A stretch of DNA of 64,000 nucleotides from Elusimicrobiales bacterium (GTDB lineage Bacteria; Elusimicrobiota; Elusimicrobia; Elusimicrobiales; UBA9959). Location of the stretch: positions 1 through 64,000 of the forward strand of contig JANZZP010000087.1 of the NCBI GenBank assembly GCA_026419335.1, written 5' to 3'. Under the pieces are notes generated by a model that did not search any database, was not told where the DNA came from, and was given only the letters and a program-made list of their open reading frames with translations. Positions 20,892 to 30,028 of the stretch are shown here, in pieces. The position numbers and the translations under genes were made by a program. How positions within the stretch are numbered: position 1 is the first letter of the stretch; every line of letters begins with the position of its first letter.

Positions 20892-23672
20892 ATGGATAAG
20901 ACAGAAAATAAATCTTTCTCTCATACCGTTTTTCTTCCAAAAACATCATTTTCTATGAAAGCAAATCTTGTACAGAAAGAACCTCAGATTTTGAAATTTT
21001 GGCATGAGAATTATATTTATGAGAAAATGATTGAAAAAAAATTTAGTTCTAAATTTTTCTATTTACATGATGGCCCTCCATATGCTAATGGACATATTCA
21101 TATAGGACATGCTTTGAATAAAATTCTCAAAGATTTCGTAGTTAAATCTTATTCTATTCTTGGATATAAAACTCCGTTTATTCCTGGTTGGGACTGTCAT
21201 GGATTACCAATAGAGCAGCAACTTTTAAAAGAGTTGAAAATATCTAAAAAAAATATTGGTGACATTATATCATTTAGAAAAAAAGCACGAGATTTTGCTT
21301 TAAAATTTATAGATATACAAAAACAGGAGTTTAAAAGACTTGGAGTTTTTGGAGAGTGGGATAGAGCATATATTACAATGTCAAATGAATATGAAGCTAC
21401 AATAGTAAGAGCTTTTTTAGAATTATTAGAAAAGGGATATATTGAGCGTGATAAAAAAACTATATATTGGTGCCCAATTTGTGAGACTGCTTTGGCAGAT
21501 GCTGAAGTTGAGTATAAGGATAAAACATCACCTTCTATATATGTAAAGTTTAAAGTTTTATTCTCAAAATTTAATATTTCAAATTTATATCTTGTAGTAT
21601 GGACTACAACACCTTGGACTTTACCATCAAATATAGCTGTTGCCTTAAAAGATGATGAATTTTATTCAGTTATTAAAGTAGGAGAAGAACATCTTATTAT
21701 AGCAACGAAATTAATTGATGATTTTTCAAAAAACACAGGATGTGGTTTTCAAGAAATAAAAAAGATAAAAGGTTTGGATTTTGCAGATGTACTATATGAA
21801 GCTCCATTGATTGAGCTTTTAGACGATTCACATAGATATCCTCGGAAGGTTATATTTACTGATTTTGTTGAAATGTCTAGTGGAACTGGCATAGTTCATA
21901 TAGCACCAGGGCATGGAGAGGAAGATTATCTTGCTTCTAAAAAGTGGAATATTGAGGTTTTTTGTCCAGTTGATGAATCTGGTAAATTTACTAAAGAAGT
22001 TAAAGAACTGAGTGGAAAATTTGTGTTTGACGCAAACGAATTTATTATAGAAATGTTAAAGAAAAAAAATATACTTATAAAATCATCATTTATTTCGCAT
22101 AGTTATCCTCATTGTTGGAGATGTAAACAACCAATTATTTTTAGAGCTACAAAACAATGGTTTCTGAAGATAGATAATGTCAACTTAAGAGAGAAGCTAC
22201 TTCAGGAATGTAATAAGGTTAATTGGATACCATCTCAAGGATACGAAAGAATTACATCTATGATAAAAATAAGGCCTGATTGGTGTTTGTCTAGGCAGAG
22301 ATATTGGGGAACACCTATAATTGCTTTTTGGTGTAAAAGTTGTGGAAAAATCTTTGATGATTTTAAGGTTTTATATTCTATTGCTGATAGGATTGCTAAA
22401 GAGGGTAGTGATTTTTGGTTTACAGAAACTTCTTCTCAAATTCTTAAAAATTCTAAATGTGTATGTGGAAGTAATGATTTTGAAAAGGAAAAAGATATAC
22501 TTGATGTTTGGTTAGATTCAGGCGTTTCTTGGTATGCTGTATGTAAAAATCTATCCAAAGTATATCCAGCAGATCTTTATTTAGAAGGTTCTGATCAACA
22601 TAGGGGATGGTTTCAGACATCTCTTATTCCATCAGTTGCATTAAACTCAATTGCGCCATATAAAACAGTTCTTACTCATGGTTTTGTTCTTGATGAGCAT
22701 GGAAGAGCTATGCATAAATCATTAGGGAATGTCGTTTCTCCAAATGAGGTTATATCAAAATATGGTGCTGAAATACTTAGGATGTGGGTTGCTTTGAGTG
22801 ATTGGAAAGAGGATGTTAGAATATCTGATTCTTTATTATCTGTTCCAATAGATTTGTATAGAAAAGTGAGAAATACTTTTAGATATTTACTTGGTAATCT
22901 TTCAGATTTTTCGGCATCTAAGAAAGTAACAATGGAAGAGATGACTGATATCGATAAATATATATTATCGAGATTAACTGATGTTGTAGAAGGTATAAAA
23001 TCAGATTGGCAGACATATGATTATAGAAATGCGGCGAAAAGAATTATAGATTTCTGTATAATTGATCTCTCTTCTTTCTATCTTGATGTTTTAAAGGATA
23101 GGCTTTATACTTTCCCTATTAACTCGAAAGAGAGAAGATCTTCTCAAACAGCAATGTATGAAATTTTAAAAGTTTTGAGTGTAATTTCTTCTCCAATTAT
23201 ATCATTTACTTCAGAAGAAGTTTGGCAAGTATTTAAAAATGAGATAGATTCTTCTTTATCGGAAAGTGTTTTTCTTAATAATATAGATGATATTTACAAA
23301 CCTTATAGAAATCTTGAAATAGTTCAAAAATATAAGAAAATACTTGAAATAAGAGAAAATATATTGAAAGAAATTGAATTAGTTAGGAAGAAAGGTGAAA
23401 TAGGCTCTTCATTAGAATGTAAAGTGGTTGTAGAAGCTGATGGGGATTTATATTCTTTTATAAAATCTAATGTTTCTGAAATAGCTATGGCATGTATAGT
23501 TTCTCAAATTGAACTTGTTAAAGGTGATTTCAAAATAATAGTAAAAAAAGCAGATGGGATAAAGTGTCCTAGGTGCTGGCAATGGAGAACTGATATTGGA
23601 GTAGATAAAGATTATCCTCAATTATGTTTAAAATGTGCATCTGCTGTTAAAGAAAATGTTAAAAATTTTTAA
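20892..23672 (+). CDS. ileS: Isoleucyl-tRNA synthetase
   Basis: A 926-residue class I synthetase of normal bacterial length. HIGH motif at residues 70-73 in GHIHIGHALNK, editing domain with WTTTPWTLPSN and the GTGIVHIAPGHGEEDY block, catalytic core PDWCLSRQRYWGTPI, and LEGSDQHRGWFQTSL. A KMSKS-equivalent reads AMHKS (near 606-610), so its first lysine is replaced. The C-terminal zinc site is CPRCWQWRT...LCLKC. It charges tRNA-Ile in the cytoplasm. The start follows AAGGAG. Its 3' end overlaps lspA, a common pairing in bacteria. Confidence 0.97.
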   Translation: MDKTENKSFSHTVFLPKTSFSMKANLVQKEPQILKFWHENYIYEKMIEKKFSSKFFYLHDGPPYANGHIHIGHALNKILKDFVVKSYSILGYKTPFIPGWDCHGLPIEQQLLKELKISKKNIGDIISFRKKARDFALKFIDIQKQEFKRLGVFGEWDRAYITMSNEYEATIVRAFLELLEKGYIERDKKTIYWCPICETALADAEVEYKDKTSPSIYVKFKVLFSKFNISNLYLVVWTTTPWTLPSNIAVALKDDEFYSVIKVGEEHLIIATKLIDDFSKNTGCGFQEIKKIKGLDFADVLYEAPLIELLDDSHRYPRKVIFTDFVEMSSGTGIVHIAPGHGEEDYLASKKWNIEVFCPVDESGKFTKEVKELSGKFVFDANEFIIEMLKKKNILIKSSFISHSYPHCWRCKQPIIFRATKQWFLKIDNVNLREKLLQECNKVNWIPSQGYERITSMIKIRPDWCLSRQRYWGTPIIAFWCKSCGKIFDDFKVLYSIADRIAKEGSDFWFTETSSQILKNSKCVCGSNDFEKEKDILDVWLDSGVSWYAVCKNLSKVYPADLYLEGSDQHRGWFQTSLIPSVALNSIAPYKTVLTHGFVLDEHGRAMHKSLGNVVSPNEVISKYGAEILRMWVALSDWKEDVRISDSLLSVPIDLYRKVRNTFRYLLGNLSDFSASKKVTMEEMTDIDKYILSRLTDVVEGIKSDWQTYDYRNAAKRIIDFCIIDLSSFYLDVLKDRLYTFPINSKERRSSQTAMYEILKVLSVISSPIISFTSEEVWQVFKNEIDSSLSESVFLNNIDDIYKPYRNLEIVQKYKKILEIRENILKEIELVRKKGEIGSSLECKVVVEADGDLYSFIKSNVSEIAMACIVSQIELVKGDFKIIVKKADGIKCPRCWQWRTDIGVDKDYPQLCLKCASAVKENVKNF

Positions 23673-24129
23673 AGATAAAAGAGTTTTAGGTACTCTAATT
23701 GTTGTAGTGGTTTTTTTAATTGATATTATCTCAAAAAGCATTATCGTTAAGAAGCAGTCATTGTGGTATGAATCATACTTATATGGATTAATAAATATAC
23801 ATGTTGTTAAAAACACTGGGGTTGCTTTTGGGATGTTTAAAGGTTATAATAATTTTTTTATAGTGTTTAATAGCATAATTCTTTTATTTCTTTTTTATAT
23901 TAAAAGAAAGATAAAATCTAATATTTCCTTTTATGGTATTCACTTTATAATAGGTGGAGCTGTAGGAAATATTTTTGATAGAATTAAACATGGTTTTGTT
24001 ATTGACTTTATAGATTTAAAATTTTTTCCTGCTATTTTTAATTTAGCAGATTTTTTTATTACTGTTGGTATTATAATGTTTATTTTAGATGATTTGTTTA
24101 AATCTAATGGAGGTTTGTGTGAAAAATAG
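23656..24129 (+). CDS. lspA: Prolipoprotein signal peptidase II
   Basis: About 157 residues with four transmembrane helices. The catalytic aspartates are in GNIFDRIKHG and FNLADFF; the conserved KNTGVAFGMF motif and FVIDFID are present. LspA cuts the signal peptide of diacylated prolipoproteins at the inner membrane. I chose the ATG at 23656 inside the ileS 3' end; a GTG at 23635 is an alternative. The next gene encodes a predicted lipoprotein, i.e. a substrate of this enzyme. Confidence 0.95.
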   Translation: MLKIFKDKRVLGTLIVVVVFLIDIISKSIIVKKQSLWYESYLYGLINIHVVKNTGVAFGMFKGYNNFFIVFNSIILLFLFYIKRKIKSNISFYGIHFIIGGAVGNIFDRIKHGFVIDFIDLKFFPAIFNLADFFITVGIIMFILDDLFKSNGGLCEK

Positions 24130-25054
24130 TATTTTTTTATTGTTTCTTTTTTTATTTTCCTGTTCTCAATCGCCTGAATATTATCTTAAAAGAGGAAACT
24201 TATTTTTTATTTCTGGTGATTATTACAGAGCAATTGATATGTATACAACAGCTATATTAAAAAATCCAAATTATGCAGATGCTTATGTTTCTAGAGCTAT
24301 GGCTTACGAAAAAATAGGAAATAAAACTAAAGCTGTTGATGATTATCTAAAAGCAATTACATATAATCCTAATTATATTGCAGCTTATAATAATCTCGCG
24401 TCATTTTATATAGAATCATCTCTTTATGATAAAGCTCTTTATTACATAGAGAAATCTATAGATATTAATCCCTCTTATAGATATGCTTATTATAATAGGG
24501 GATTAGTTTACTATTTTACGCAAAAATATATTGATTCAATTAAGGATTTCACAAAAGCAATTGAACTTTCAGAAGGAAAAATGTATCTTGCTTATTACTA
24601 TAGAGCATTAGCATATTCTAAACTTTCTATGCAACAAGAGGCAGTAAAAGATATAAATTATTTAATAGAAAAAAATTATACTAATGATGTAGTTTATTAT
24701 ACCTTAGCAAAAATATTTTTTGATATCCATAATATTGATTCTGCTATGAAAAATATAGATAAAGCCATAAATATAAAGGAAGATGCTAATTATTATTATC
24801 TTAGAGCTAAGATAAATGAAAAACTTAATAAAATTATAGATTCACTTGATGATATAAACAAAGCAATAAAGCTTTCAAATCTTTCGAAGGTTAGTTATTT
24901 CTATTATGCTGCTGATTTATATATAAAAATTGAGGAATATATGACAGCACAAAAATATTGTGATATGGCTTTAAAAATAGATCCTTCTTCTGAAAAAGAA
25001 TATAATATAAGAATTTTAAATATAAAAAACAGAATAAGGAATAGGGGAAAATGA
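24119..25054 (+). CDS. TPR-repeat lipoprotein
   Basis: About 311 residues, started from GTG at 24119, five bases after GGAGG. The signal peptide ends in a lipobox (FLFSC), so the mature protein is lipid-anchored at Cys. The rest is about seven to eight tetratricopeptide repeats, e.g. YYRAIDMYTTAILKNPNYA, KAVDDYLKAITYNPNYI and KALYYIEKSIDINPSYR, a scaffold for protein contacts in the periplasm. A longer reading with an upstream ATG at 24089 would bury the signal peptide and is unlikely. The gene overlaps lspA by 11 bases. Confidence 0.85.
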   Translation: MKNSIFLLFLFLFSCSQSPEYYLKRGNLFFISGDYYRAIDMYTTAILKNPNYADAYVSRAMAYEKIGNKTKAVDDYLKAITYNPNYIAAYNNLASFYIESSLYDKALYYIEKSIDINPSYRYAYYNRGLVYYFTQKYIDSIKDFTKAIELSEGKMYLAYYYRALAYSKLSMQQEAVKDINYLIEKNYTNDVVYYTLAKIFFDIHNIDSAMKNIDKAINIKEDANYYYLRAKINEKLNKIIDSLDDINKAIKLSNLSKVSYFYYAADLYIKIEEYMTAQKYCDMALKIDPSSEKEYNIRILNIKNRIRNRGK

Positions 25055-27054
25055 GTTTGAAAGAAAAATTTTTGGCAACAAGACTTGCTTTAGAAAAAAT
25101 TTTATTTGAAAAAGAAATAAGTTCAGAGAAAAAACTTCAAAAAAAATATTATAAACATCTTTTTCTTTTAGTATCTATTTACTTTTTTATAAATCTTTTA
25201 TATTTTTATTTTAATATCGATATAGTTAGTTATCATCTTTCATCTATTGATTACTCTAAAATAACTTTTATGGATATTTTGTTTCATACTGATTACTTGT
25301 CTCCTTCTTTTGAAATGCCACTTTATGCTATAATTTTAAAATTAATTTCTTTTATATTTGAATTAAATATATGGAGTGTTTTTGTTATAAATACAATTGC
25401 TTGGATATTTGGGATTTTAGGGTATTATCTACTTATAGCAAAAACAAGAAATGAACAGACAGGATTACTTGCTGTAGCCGCTCTTATTTCAACTCCCTTT
25501 TTTATCAACCTTACCAGGCAAGTGTCAGGGAACATATTATCTTTTGCCTTCTTAATTTGGAGTTATTACTATTATATACGTATGAAGACAGAGGAACAAT
25601 ACAAATCTGTTCCATATTTTATCATTTTTTATTCACTTGGCTTATTATCGGATAAATTTTTCATTTTATATACGATTCCATCTTTTTCATTTATAAGTTT
25701 TTTATTTAATACTACATATGCAAACCATGTAATTTCAATATTTATTCCTGCAGCTATTATTTCAATTATTTTTTATATTAGATTTATAATTATTTTTATA
25801 ATAAAATTATCTTTAAATAATGAATTTATATTAAGTTATTTCAATTTTAAAGAATTATTTCAATCATATATTAATTATTTTGGTTTGGTTTCTTTTGTTA
25901 TTATTTTTCCTTTTTTTATATGGATGGTTTTTTCTTTATATAATATATACATTTGTAAAAAAGAAATATTTAGGTGGTTTTTTTATCCAGTGTTAGTTTT
26001 TTTTATCATCTCAATATCACCTAAAATTCTTGGTTTTACAGTACCGGCGATAATTCTTGGTTTTTCTGTTATGACTTTTGGTACTTTAAGAAAAAAACTT
26101 GTTTATTTTTTTACTTTAATGATGGTTTTATCTTCTTTTGATATATCTTCTTTAAATTTTAGAGGATATAAATTATGGGGTTATGCTGAAAATAGTGATA
26201 ATAAAAAAATAGTCAAACATATTCTTTATGCATTATCAAATGAACAAAATTTAATTCCTTATGAAGTTCCAGTTTCTGTTAAGCTATATGAGAAAAATAT
26301 AAATTCAGATTCATTTGAGATTTTAAAAGAGAGATATATGATTAAAAAATTTAAGTTTAGAAATTGTATTAAGGAATTTTTACCTTTTTCGTGCTATTTA
26401 ATTACTGATAAAAAAGATTATGATATTAAAGATTTTGAAGACCTTTTTTTATATCGTGGAGTTTATTTGTTGAAAAATTCATTTTGTAATTATAAATTGG
26501 ATAAAGATTCTTACTATATTCCAAAAATTAAAGTTTCAGAGATGGAAATTTCTGATATAAATTTAAAAGTAGTTGATACAGATATATCTACAGATAATCT
26601 TAAAGATTTATATATTGATATTGGTTATCTTGGATATAGAGGAATTGATTTTTATGGTGTAAAAGGTGTATTAAAAGATGTGATTATAAATACAGACAAC
26701 AAATATATTATATCTAGCTTTTCAAAATTAGAGATAAAAAATGCAATAATAAATCAATATTCAATTGCAGCAGCTTTAGAAAACACAAAAGGAAAAAAAA
26801 TTGAATTAATATTTATGAATAATGTAATTAAATTTGTAAAAAAATTCAATTTTTTTGATATGGTTATATATCTTTCACCAGAAATTAAAGATAATGTAAT
26901 TTATTTAAAATTACTTGGTATAAGAATAGGTGGATTTAGTTTTGGTGTATTTTTTTCTGATTTTTTTGTTTTTAAATTACCCCTCGATAAATTTCCTTTC
27001 CCTTTAAAATTTTCTAAAATTCAGATTACTAACGAACTCATTAAATTATCATGA
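25051..27054 (+). CDS. GT-C-type membrane glycosyltransferase-like protein with extra soluble C-terminal domain
   Basis: A 667-residue protein. Residues about 45-365 hold some nine to eleven membrane helices with a layout like ArnT/PMT (GT39) polyprenyl-phosphate-sugar transferases. In the first loop, FHTDYLSPSFEMPLYAII has the acidic/proline look of these enzymes. Residues about 480-667 form a soluble domain (MEISDINLKV...LYIDIGYLGYRG, ISSFSKLEIKNAII) resembling DUF2993/LmeA-type lipid-binding folds. I am fairly sure of the membrane part's general class but not of its activity. The gene is coupled by ATGA overlaps to both neighbours, so it belongs with the lipoprotein and the pseudo-ATPase. 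Confidence 0.5.
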   Translation: MSLKEKFLATRLALEKILFEKEISSEKKLQKKYYKHLFLLVSIYFFINLLYFYFNIDIVSYHLSSIDYSKITFMDILFHTDYLSPSFEMPLYAIILKLISFIFELNIWSVFVINTIAWIFGILGYYLLIAKTRNEQTGLLAVAALISTPFFINLTRQVSGNILSFAFLIWSYYYYIRMKTEEQYKSVPYFIIFYSLGLLSDKFFILYTIPSFSFISFLFNTTYANHVISIFIPAAIISIIFYIRFIIIFIIKLSLNNEFILSYFNFKELFQSYINYFGLVSFVIIFPFFIWMVFSLYNIYICKKEIFRWFFYPVLVFFIISISPKILGFTVPAIILGFSVMTFGTLRKKLVYFFTLMMVLSSFDISSLNFRGYKLWGYAENSDNKKIVKHILYALSNEQNLIPYEVPVSVKLYEKNINSDSFEILKERYMIKKFKFRNCIKEFLPFSCYLITDKKDYDIKDFEDLFLYRGVYLLKNSFCNYKLDKDSYYIPKIKVSEMEISDINLKVVDTDISTDNLKDLYIDIGYLGYRGIDFYGVKGVLKDVIINTDNKYIISSFSKLEIKNAIINQYSIAAALENTKGKKIELIFMNNVIKFVKKFNFFDMVIYLSPEIKDNVIYLKLLGIRIGGFSFGVFFSDFFVFKLPLDKFPFPLKFSKIQITNELIKLS

Positions 27055-27746
27055 AAAAAAAATGTTTCTTTTTTCTATTCTTTTTTTCTTGTAGTTTATC
27101 AAATGTAAAAGAGTATGTTCAAAATAATTCTTCCTTTGAATATAAATATTGTTCAGTTCATTTTTGCTTTTATTCTAATGAAAATATACATTTAAAAGAT
27201 TTTGTAACAAAAGCAGAAAATATATATCATTATTTTATTTCTAAATATTCATTTTCTCTACCTCATAAATATCCATATAAATTTTTTATAGGAAGTGGAT
27301 TATCTAATTTTAATAATAAAGAAAATGAACTTATATATATTAGTTCGATAGAATTTGTAAGTGAAGCAGTTATTAGCTGTATAATATCAGAGATTTTTTC
27401 ACATAATAAAGAAATATATCCATGGTTATATTATGGTTTTATTTATTGGGTGGTTTTAGATTTTGATTCAAGTTATTTGAGTTATATTAATGTAAATAAA
27501 GATAAAAAAATTAACATGCCTGTTGAAATGTTATTTAATTTAAGTTCAGATATGATTTTAGGAAAAGATAATTTATTTTATAAATCTAATCTTGTTTCAT
27601 TAATATCTTTTATTATAAATAAATATTCTTACATAAGTTTTTCTCTTTTTGTAGAAGATTTGTTTAAAACTGGCAATCCAAGAATATCTTCTTTAAATAT
27701 TTTTGGAAAGGATGTTTTTTTGGAATATGAAAGGATGTTAAGATAA
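27051..27746 (+). CDS. Lipoprotein with degenerate peptidase-MA-like fold (tentative)
   Basis: A 231-residue protein. MKKKCFFFLFFFSC is a lipoprotein signal with the cysteine at residue 14. The rest has no clear family. The order of elements recalls 'peptidase MA' gluzincins: an N-terminal segment with YKYCSVHFCFYSN, then ISCIISEIFSHN at the place of HExxH and PWLYYGFIYWVVLDF at the place of the conserved W..EG.A.Y. If so, both zinc histidines and the glutamate are lost or changed and it is not an active protease. Low certainty on the fold, high on it being a lipoprotein gene between two coupled membrane genes. Confidence 0.45.
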   Translation: MKKKCFFFLFFFSCSLSNVKEYVQNNSSFEYKYCSVHFCFYSNENIHLKDFVTKAENIYHYFISKYSFSLPHKYPYKFFIGSGLSNFNNKENELIYISSIEFVSEAVISCIISEIFSHNKEIYPWLYYGFIYWVVLDFDSSYLSYINVNKDKKINMPVEMLFNLSSDMILGKDNLFYKSNLVSLISFIINKYSYISFSLFVEDLFKTGNPRISSLNIFGKDVFLEYERMLR

Positions 27747-29530
27747 TGGCAATATATAAGCTTTTGATATCTCTGGAAGGTGATTATAATAATAACATAT
27801 ATGATTCTATATACGAGAACATAAGAAAAATGGGAGGGGTGCTATCAGTTCAAATTTTTGATATGAGTGGGGTTATGAAGATAATTTATGATGATGCTGC
27901 TGTTAAGTATGAGAAAATTATCTCAAGAATATTAAGCTTTGATGTCAAAATAAAAAATTATTCTATTGAAAGTGATACATCAAATCAAGTAGATAGCATT
28001 CCATATAATTTGTTAAATTTTAATAAGTTAATATGGATATTTTTAGTTTTTGTTGTGTTTTATTATTCAGATAAGTTTTTGACTAATAAATATATATCTT
28101 TTCCTATTTACTTTTTTATTATATTGTGGTTGAGTTATGATTTTATTAAAAAGCATAAATCTGTTAATAAGACTATAAATATTTATTCTATTACTCTTAT
28201 TTACTTTTTTTCATTTCTTTTATACAAATTGATAGTTGTTCTATTCCCAAGTTTATTTTTAGTTGATTTTGTAAGTTGGTATATAATAGTTTTTTTTATA
28301 TTAGTTATTTATATTGGTTTCTATCTTTTTAACTATTTTTCAATAAAAAATAAAACTTATTCTAGGACTATTAAATCTTTCATGCCTGCATTTATTAAAG
28401 TTAAAAAGGAATCAGGTTTTGAAAGAATTAATATTGAAGATATTATGGAGAATGATGTCGTTATTTTTGAAAAAGGAGATTTCATCTCATCAGATTCAGT
28501 TATAATATTTGGTAAAGCTATTATTGATGAATCTCTTATCAAAGGTAGTAATAATCTAGTTGAAAAAAAAGAAGGAGATGAGATTTATGCTGGATCTTTT
28601 GTGCTTGAGGGAAAAATAGAAGCAAGAATAATTAAAAAACCTAAATTTTCAAATTTTTTTAATATATTATCTTATTCTTCTAAATTTAATAAAAAAGAAT
28701 CGTATTTTATACATATTCCTTTTATTATATTTGATAAATTTTTAATTATTATCCCAATTATAATTTTGTTAATTTCTATTTTTTCTTTTAAAAAATATGT
28801 AAATTTTTCAGTAATAGATTCTATTTTTATATCTATCTTTATTCTTTATCCATACGTTATATGGATAATATTTCCTCTTCTTTATATTTTTTCATCAAGT
28901 TCTGGTATAAAGAGAGGATTTTATATAAAAAATATTGATTCAATAATACCAGTTATTTATTCAAATACAATAGTTTTCTTTTATGATAAAGGGATAGATT
29001 TTCAATCAATAGATATGCTTAGAAAAAATGGATTTGAAACAATTTTGATTTCAGATTCTGGAAAGATTAATGAAAAAAGTAGTAAAGGTTTAGATGTTAC
29101 TTATTATTCAGTTCCTCAAATTCAAAAAGAAGGATATATAATTAAGATGAAACTTGCAGGGAAAAAAATGATTTCTATTGGACGTTCTGTTGAAGATTTA
29201 GTTGCATTGCTGTCGTCGGATGTATCAATTATTACAATGATTCATCCAGAATCTTTTTCTTTTAATTGTGATATTATTCTTTTAAAGAATGAACCCAAGA
29301 TTATTGTTGAATTAAAAAATTATTGTAATTTTATGCTTAATATAATAAAAGAAAATTCATATCTTGTAATTTTATTTCATCTATTTATTTTACCTTTGAT
29401 AATTTTAATAAATGGTATTATGGGCAATATTTATTATATTCAACATATAGTATTTTTTTTGACAATATTTATGCTTATTGTAATTGGTATAAATTCTGCA
29501 AGGGTATATCTATCTTATAGAAAGAGATAA
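27746..29530 (+). CDS. Degenerate P1B-type ATPase (pseudo-pump) lacking the nucleotide-binding domain
   Basis: A 594-residue protein that follows heavy-metal P-type ATPases in order. Residues 3-72 look like an HMA domain without CxxC. Four N-terminal membrane helices span about 91-197. An actuator domain at 228-300 has IIDESLIKGSNN where pumps have DESmlTGES. A membrane pair follows with YPY (368-370) at the CPC position, then GFYIKNIDSIIP and IVFFYDKGID (412-418) at the place of DKTGT. The sequence passes at once to LRKNGFETILISD (TGD region) and SIGRSVEDLVALLSSDVSI (GDGINDAPAL region), then final helices. The nucleotide-binding domain and the signature residues of each step are gone, so pumping is unlikely. 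The reading frame is intact. Confidence 0.7.
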   Translation: MAIYKLLISLEGDYNNNIYDSIYENIRKMGGVLSVQIFDMSGVMKIIYDDAAVKYEKIISRILSFDVKIKNYSIESDTSNQVDSIPYNLLNFNKLIWIFLVFVVFYYSDKFLTNKYISFPIYFFIILWLSYDFIKKHKSVNKTINIYSITLIYFFSFLLYKLIVVLFPSLFLVDFVSWYIIVFFILVIYIGFYLFNYFSIKNKTYSRTIKSFMPAFIKVKKESGFERINIEDIMENDVVIFEKGDFISSDSVIIFGKAIIDESLIKGSNNLVEKKEGDEIYAGSFVLEGKIEARIIKKPKFSNFFNILSYSSKFNKKESYFIHIPFIIFDKFLIIIPIIILLISIFSFKKYVNFSVIDSIFISIFILYPYVIWIIFPLLYIFSSSSGIKRGFYIKNIDSIIPVIYSNTIVFFYDKGIDFQSIDMLRKNGFETILISDSGKINEKSSKGLDVTYYSVPQIQKEGYIIKMKLAGKKMISIGRSVEDLVALLSSDVSIITMIHPESFSFNCDIILLKNEPKIIVELKNYCNFMLNIIKENSYLVILFHLFILPLIILINGIMGNIYYIQHIVFFLTIFMLIVIGINSARVYLSYRKR

Positions 29531-30028
29531 TTAATTATTTAACATACATTTAAATCTCTTAACTGTGTGATGTGTTGCGATTATAAAAAATATAGTTGAT
29601 GATTGTATGTGTAGTGTATAAAGTATTTTTTTAATTTCAATAAATATTGAAAAATAAAGAAAAAAACCAGTTAATGAGGATATTGTAGCAGATAAAAGAA
29701 GTATCCAATTTAAAATAATCCTTATGTATATTAATTTTTTTATTAATAATTCAGCGATTATAACTATGATGATACTTATAATGATAATATGAATCAGTGC
29801 ATGATTTAAAATTTTTTGTTTTGTGGATTGATTAGAATAATTAAGTTTTTGTTTGTTTTCGCTTTCTTTTTTTAGAGCGTTATATTTCTCCCATATATCA
29901 CATATTCCATTTATATTCCTATCAATAAAATCTTGACAATTCCCATAACAAGGAGTTGAAAAAGTAACTCCACTACATTGTGGTTGAGCTGAGATTAAAA
30001 AAGATATCAAATTTATTATTATTATCAT
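29531..30028 (-). CDS. Membrane protein with signal peptide and calcium-loop-like motif (DUF4405-like)
   Basis: A 165-residue protein: N-terminal signal sequence, an exported segment with four cysteines ending in CQDFIDRNINGICDIWEKY (a DxNxDGxCD-type loop like EF-hand or dockerin calcium loops), a polar linker, and about three membrane helices. Histidines NHALIHII and IQSSTIFFIIATHH sit in the helices, as in heme-b-binding DUF4405-like proteins. No function is established. It overlaps the upstream hydrolase gene by four bases and abuts the convergent pseudo-ATPase gene with no gap. Confidence 0.5.
   Translation of the reverse strand: MIIIINLISFLISAQPQCSGVTFSTPCYGNCQDFIDRNINGICDIWEKYNALKKESENKQKLNYSNQSTKQKILNHALIHIIIISIIIVIIAELLIKKLIYIRIILNWILLLSATISSLTGFFLYFSIFIEIKKILYTLHIQSSTIFFIIATHHTVKRFKCMLNN

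Follow-up and report, generated by a model that had tools for sequence, protein, structure and literature searches.

P-type ATPases are usually viewed as one machine, in which a phosphorylation cycle of the A-, P- and N-domains moves the membrane helices. If a lineage has dispensed with the N-domain and the catalytic residues and is still selected, its scaffold would have a value apart from pumping. In guanylyl cyclase beta of Plasmodium, the P4-ATPase domain is described as having lost most of its signature residues while the protein was retained (PMC6592433). As described, that domain is of the eukaryotic P4 type and is fused to the cyclase, whereas the protein analyzed here is a stand-alone protein of the P1B type. 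The FUPA24 proteins of mycobacteria (CtpH-CtpI) are reported to be double the usual length, with P-type motifs in the C-terminal region only (PMC3573892). The FUPA24 region is fused to a complete ATPase half and has no deletion of the N-domain, while the present protein stands alone. The N-terminal half of FUPA24 is itself said to be a dead ATPase. No account of a stand-alone P-type ATPase family without an N-domain was found in the titles and opening lines of abstracts of open-licence papers. The P1B copper exporters (CopA, structures 3rfu and 4bbj, and ATP7B) differ from the present protein, which is without their N-domain, phosphorylation and dephosphorylation motifs, CPC and CxxC.

The window, which is the whole stretch of 64,000 nucleotides that was analyzed, contains an open reading frame of 594 codons with no internal stop. 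The frame and its predicted parts are:

27746..29530, + strand: N-domain-less pseudo-P1B-ATPase, 594 amino acids (open reading frame, Pfam, NCBIfam, PDB, orthologue alignment and model)
27746..27973, + strand: HMA-like domain, residues 1-76, with a ferredoxin-like fold in the predicted model and no CxxC; the most constrained part (dN/dS 0.17)
28013..28381, + strand: first four transmembrane (TM) helices, residues 90-212 (model and P1B pattern)
28385..28645, + strand: A-domain, residues 214-300, with KGSN (28541-28552) replacing TGES and the preceding DESL retained (Pfam, alignment and structure comparison)
28697..28915, + strand: TM5-TM6, residues 318-390, with YPY (28847-28855) replacing CPC (alignment and model)
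28916..29290, + strand: P-domain remnant, residues 391-515, with the Rossmann fold retained in the model and GRSVED (29180-29197) replacing GDGxND (alignment and model)
28979..28999, + strand: residues 412-418, the site at which relatives have DKTGT and then the N-domain (alignment)
29300..29527, + strand: TM7-TM8, residues 519-594, the least constrained part, in which the YN and MxxSS of relatives are lost (model and conservation)

The protein is a homologue of the P1B (copper-type) ATPases, with similarity far above chance, and this homology notwithstanding it fails nearly all of the functional features of these enzymes that were tested. It matched the Pfam A-domain model PF00122 (E1-E2_ATPase) at 1.4e-19, with 70.8 bits against a curated cutoff of 28.1. 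NCBIfam TIGR01525 was matched at 1.8e-24, with 86.5 bits, which is below the cutoff of 346 for membership of the heavy-metal ATPases. The PDB sequence match was to CopA 3j08 (4.2e-11), and a further, weak match covered the P-domain remnant. These matches and a direct reading of the motifs bear out the ordered alignment with copper/zinc P-type ATPases, and the motif losses, that an earlier note on this sequence had listed.

Three full-length orthologues were found: P0002 (58% identity), which is encoded in the Elusimicrobiales metagenome-assembled genome SKW254 (G001), the closest relative of the window, P0003 (44%) and P0004 (40%). All are about 590 amino acids long and match PF00122 only. The same losses were found in all four proteins, listed here in the order window, P0002, P0003, P0004. 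The TGE loop is absent, with KGSN (residues 266-269 in the window protein), NGKF, KGKG and KDEG in its place. CPC in TM6 is absent, replaced by YPY (368-370), YPS, YPF and YPF. GDGxND is replaced by G-x-S-x-x-D (within IGRSVEDL, 478-485, in the window protein), such that its first Asp has become R/Y/N/R, while D484 is retained in all four. None has DKTGT with its phosphorylated Asp. The N-domain is absent between about 412 and 418 in the window protein, in the alignment of all four, and in the structural model. The HMA CxxC is also missing from all four, the former Cys positions being N/N/D/D and I/V/T/L, while Tyr14 and Tyr19, beside the former CxxC loop, are invariant. At E 1 the window protein was not matched by the Pfam HMA model, which scored below cutoff in P0028 and P0031 and above it in P0030.

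The position of the former phosphorylated Asp is most likely F412, because in G097 and P0031, when aligned with it, the Asp comes directly after ...IF, and because the first P-domain strand ends at 408-411 in the model. This position is Phe in all four orthologues. The earlier note had instead taken Asp 414 to be the retained Asp and found it odd for pure decay; that argument was wrong, because residue 414 is D/N/D/H across the orthologues, which also rules out Asp 414 as a trace of function. The contention that the protein cannot pump as P-type ATPases do is supported by the losses of the motifs and of the N-domain.

An AlphaFold2 model of the 594-residue protein had a pLDDT of 84.9 and a pTM of 0.84, and the structures nearest to it were P1B pumps. 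Its fold is partly inherited from ordinary ATPases, because these dominate the alignment used for the model. In the model, the A-domain, the P-domain, the eight-helix membrane domain and the HMA-like fold are all retained. The predicted A-domain superposed on 2hc8 with an rmsd of 2.3 over 112 residues, and the predicted P-domain remnant on CopA 3a1e with an rmsd of 2.1 over 138 residues; the earlier note had made its reading depend on the presence of these two folds. Over the whole chain the fit was only moderate, with a query-based Foldseek TM of 0.60 and an rmsd of 7.2. The comparison with PDB structures barely covered the HMA-like part, for which the model had block pLDDT values of 89-96 (residues 1-70) and 78 (71-80) and the beta-alpha-beta-beta-alpha-beta order of a predicted ferredoxin-like fold at residues 3-76. 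The retained P-domain fold and the conserved D484 would be consistent with a P-domain that by itself still catalyzes, for example, a HAD-fold phosphatase-like reaction. The HAD mechanism requires a nucleophile Asp, however, and with Phe at the likely nucleophile position and R/Y/N/R at the first Asp of GDGxND, such catalysis is extremely improbable.

The gene stands in a conserved block, which in the window is preceded by:

20892..23672, + strand: ileS, head of the conserved block and species-tree marker (block comparison and tree)
23635..24129, + strand: lspA, signal peptidase II (Pfam and block comparison)
24089..25054, + strand: TPR protein of the conserved block (Pfam and block comparison)
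25051..27054, + strand: GT-C (PMT_2) membrane protein, 667 amino acids, with a 4-base overlap with the lipoprotein gene (Pfam and comparison of loci)
27051..27746, + strand: lipoprotein, where relatives match Peptidase_MA_2; HExxH lost; 1-base overlap with the ATPase start (Pfam and alignment)

Matches at 1e-5 were found in 144 of the 149 genomes of the order, and the loci examined were those of G001 and of the ten genomes that ranked next in their best match. The order ileS - lspA - TPR - GT-C - ATPase was identical to that of the window in all 11 loci; in G102 the TPR gene is split over two open reading frames. In nine of the loci (G096, G092, G098, G099, G100, G093, G102, G111 and G112) the ATPase of this cassette has its N-domain, and CPC, DKTG, TGE and GDGxND were each present in all nine and the HMA CxxC in eight. 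Because the window gene has the same position in the block, it is the same gene as these cassette ATPases and not a stray fragment. In other words, gene position and similarity of sequence show that the predicted pseudo-ATPase gene is a homologue of the gene for a predicted CopA-like P1B-ATPase in related genomes, and that it stands where that gene stands. In the genomes of G096, G092, G098, G099 and G102 the cassette ATPase is the sole PF00122 match, and in G001, an assembly of about 0.8 Mb that may be incomplete, the sole match is the dead copy. G097 has two other matches besides its copy in the block, and G093, G100, G111 and G112 each have more than one. Two cassette ATPases vary in detail: that of G093 (L029 9271-11481), the one exception for the HMA CxxC, has CPC, DKTGT, TGE and GDGxND, and that of G099 (L025 4577-6763) has TGEN and DKTGV where the others carry TGES and DKTGT.

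The earlier note had described the pseudo-ATPase gene as coupled to a lipoprotein and a GT-C-like gene. The GT-C gene is indeed upstream in 11 of 11 loci. PMT_2 spans only residues 90-240 of its protein, and the C-terminal 200 or so residues have no Pfam match yet can be aligned across the block relatives. The link to the lipoprotein is looser. An open reading frame of 263-295 amino acids lies between the GT-C and ATPase genes in 10 of the 11 loci, and the lipoproteins of G097, G096 and G100, the three that were scanned, all match Peptidase_MA_2. AHE[IM]TH was present in all eight of the relatives aligned with the window lipoprotein (the ten relatives with an unbroken gene, minus G102 and G111), while the window copy has neither this motif nor the downstream Glu nor a Pfam match. 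A working metallopeptidase partner in the window is thus ruled out by the loss of HExxH. Between the window lipoprotein and those of G097 and G096 there was no phmmer match, and blastp gave 6e-5 and 6e-4 against a two-sequence target; the homology of the window lipoprotein to the metallopeptidase lipoproteins of its relatives is weak by sequence and is supported by gene position as well. In G001 the lipoprotein gene is broken (L001 9556-9985), with residues 77-157 unmatched and the two main remaining pieces in different frames, while the ATPase-like gene is intact.

The orthologues came from a search of a 5.8-billion-protein database in which the best 7995 candidates were scored, and the remaining 23 matches were P-type ATPases with PF00702, at 18-28% identity. 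None of the three orthologues has intact motifs, an outcome on which the earlier note had also made its reading depend; a single-strain pseudogene or a sequencing artefact is ruled out by the losses common to the orthologues and by a dN/dS below 1. A profile search with seven N-domain-less proteins did not enlarge the window group: at 1e-30, no new member was among its best 7995 candidates. Profile searches also covered 149 genomes from the order to which G001 belongs and 340 from the phylum, and among the matches listed only those in G001 and G097 were full-length and in a single stretch. The order-level list extends to about 5e-12. The phylum-level list has a limit of 1e-22, which 8 of 340 genomes reached, and no more than three candidates were scored per genome, so a weak N-domain-less relative could have escaped. 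A scan of genome contigs gave one relative (L001) among 112 pattern-matching stretches. With regard to carriage by viruses, two scans of viral contigs found no relative. All 277 ileS matches in plasmid records were below 60% identity and gave no placement.

Three further proteins, the G097 copy (P0028), P0029 and P0031, have lost the N-domain, CPC and CxxC in common with the window group. They retain the Asp and GDGLND, together with an A-domain TGQ (G097 and P0029) or TGE (P0031); only the window group has also lost these. Next to the half-dead G097 copy there is still a lipoprotein with HExxH, unlike in the window. The three proteins are grouped here by these shared features, with no clade of their own implied, and by their motifs they are intermediates between the intact and the fully dead proteins. 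The SKW254 orthologue is annotated as a hypothetical protein and the G097 copy as a HAD-IC family P-type ATPase, so existing gene names are a poor guide to this group.

In the ATPase tree, which contained G001 but not its copy P0002, the seven N-domain-less proteins formed one group with support of 99/100, sister to the intact protein of G096, which was the nearest intact relative. In this tree 12 of 19 rows failed the composition test. The 12-taxon ileS tree, in which the outgroup did not fall on one side of a branch, agreed on the order of the genomes (96/96). Among 8-taxon trees under a simpler model, those of lspA (90/94), the ATPase (86/92) and, weakly, the TPR protein (61/40) favored a single loss of the N-domain, while those of ileS (52/24) and the GT-C protein (68/67) weakly joined G097 with G096. 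Because these smaller trees are partly unresolved or weakly discordant, the N-domain may have been deleted twice if the weakly supported alternatives are right. Read along the tree, the motifs show that this lineage first lost the N-domain together with the motifs of the metal site, and later those of the phosphorylation cycle, with the frame staying open throughout. The presence of intact, half-dead and fully dead proteins at one locus is what makes the order of losses readable. The stem branch was very long in the ATPase tree (2.5-2.7, against 0.44 for ileS; 1.45 against 0.36 under the simpler model). The path from the window to G001 was 0.65 for the ATPase, 0.48 for the GT-C protein and 0.15 for ileS, compared with 0.16, 0.32 and 0.23 between G098 and G100. 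The GT-C protein is thus retained with moderately raised rates, and the rates of the ATPase are raised much more.

Comparison of the window and G001 pseudo-ATPase genes by the NG86 method gave a dN of 0.27, a dS of 0.70 and a dN/dS of 0.39 (bootstrap 0.30-0.49), an estimate from one genome pair. Ten other nearby genes had dN/dS values of 0.10-0.35 (GT-C 0.35, C39 0.32). Among the cassette ATPases, which differ from the window protein in having the N-domain and the catalytic motifs, the pairs that could be computed gave 0.06 (dS 1.95) and 0.14; the pair G099-G100 was saturated. Constraint on the pseudo-ATPase is therefore clearly relaxed, since its value is the highest of 11 genes and far above those of the intact pairs. 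Neutral evolution was simulated without indels, at the rate seen in a pool of 1011 four-fold sites from all 11 genes. In 500 runs there were on average about 41 stops and never fewer than 25, against zero observed, and an expected amino acid identity of 23% against 58% observed; the simulated dN/dS was 1.15 (minimum 0.88 in 150 runs). Because the motifs are missing in all four members, their loss most simply predates the split between the window and G001, and hence selection would be acting on the dead protein. The substitution pattern thus indicates that the dead gene remained under purifying selection. Pseudogenes are marked by a broken frame or neutral substitution, and neither was found here; the loss of catalytic residues across orthologues with continuing purifying selection (dN/dS from one genome pair) marks a pseudoenzyme.

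These data bear on the possibility that, as the genome is AT-rich and perhaps shrinking, the pump was no longer of use in it and that the gene, now idle, is being gradually lost. The long accelerated branch, the highest dN/dS among 11 genes, the broken lipoprotein gene alongside in SKW254 and the small though possibly incomplete G001 genome all fit such slow decay. The comparison with SKW254, of the kind for which the earlier note had called, speaks against pure decay, since its dN/dS is well below 1. Moreover, the frame is open in four divergent orthologues where neutrality would have brought at least 25 stops, the HMA-like part is strongly constrained, and the lipoprotein gene next to it shows what decay looks like at the same distance. 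Slow decay is therefore considered unlikely.

Constraint was unevenly distributed along the protein. In the window group, mean pair identity was best in the HMA-like domain (0.60) and lowest in TM7-8 (0.39), and dN/dS between the window and G001 was 0.17 in the HMA-like domain, 0.29 in the A-domain, 0.50 in the P-domain and 0.61 in TM7-8. When 2000 contiguous windows of the same length were drawn at random, four had a dN as low as that of the HMA-like domain, some of which were possibly that domain itself. In the intact cassette ATPases (eight of the nine, G093 being left out), mean pair identity was best in TM7-8 (0.64) and TM5-6 (0.59), and was 0.48 in the HMA and P-domains. In P1B-1 pumps, YN in TM7 and MxxSS in TM8 are motifs of the copper site. 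The membrane fold retained in the predicted model would agree with a membrane domain that, once the ATP machinery was discarded, became a gated channel or passive conduit through which an ion or small molecule passes. Such a conduit is nonetheless very unlikely, with CPC, YN and MxxSS gone and TM7-8 the least constrained part, which is the reverse of what it would need. The low dN/dS and high identity of the HMA-like domain, and its two invariant Tyr residues by the former CxxC loop, could also mean that this domain is the functional unit, binding a non-thiol ligand or metal, with the rest of the protein as a weakly selected anchor. The variable residues at the former Cys positions provide no invariant ligand set, however, and the dN/dS below 1 in the A- and P-domains would be left unexplained, which makes this explanation quite unlikely.

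The protein probably has a membrane job other than pumping. On balance, reuse of the non-pumping pseudo-ATPase as a membrane platform, perhaps with the GT-C protein, appears to be the likelier course of events. The scaffold interpretation of the earlier note is consistent with the data, while the sensor that it named as an alternative is neither favored nor disfavored by them; of its supporting arguments, the inability to pump stands and the retained Asp does not. The platform protein would bind no ATP at the normal site, would not be phosphorylated and would pass no metal through the membrane. Its eight helices would form a stationary platform, on which the A- and P-domains are held in a single fixed conformation and a partner protein could dock at the conserved HMA-like domain. 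The likeliest partner would be the block's own GT-C membrane protein; the metallopeptidase lipoprotein, whose active-site motif is gone in the window and whose gene is no longer intact in SKW254, may have been an earlier one. A more specific proposal, offered tentatively and more doubtful than the platform itself, is that this stand-alone P-type pseudo-ATPase could have become a non-catalytic membrane component that a GT-C glycosyltransferase system cannot do without, with the HMA-like domain as its docking module and with one locus recording the stepwise change from pump to scaffold. The series of intact, half-dead and dead proteins could also be used to test which functions the HMA-like, A- and P-domains are able to perform in the absence of ATP.

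As to an N-domain encoded elsewhere, the next gene downstream of the pseudo-ATPase is on the opposite strand and, by Pfam, unrelated. It (29531-30028, - strand) encodes a small membrane protein, in which a Cys-rich stretch lies near the N-terminus and for which Pfam gave no match above cutoff. This protein is also present in SKW254 (63% identity) and in G097 (47% over 59 residues, where the locus ends).
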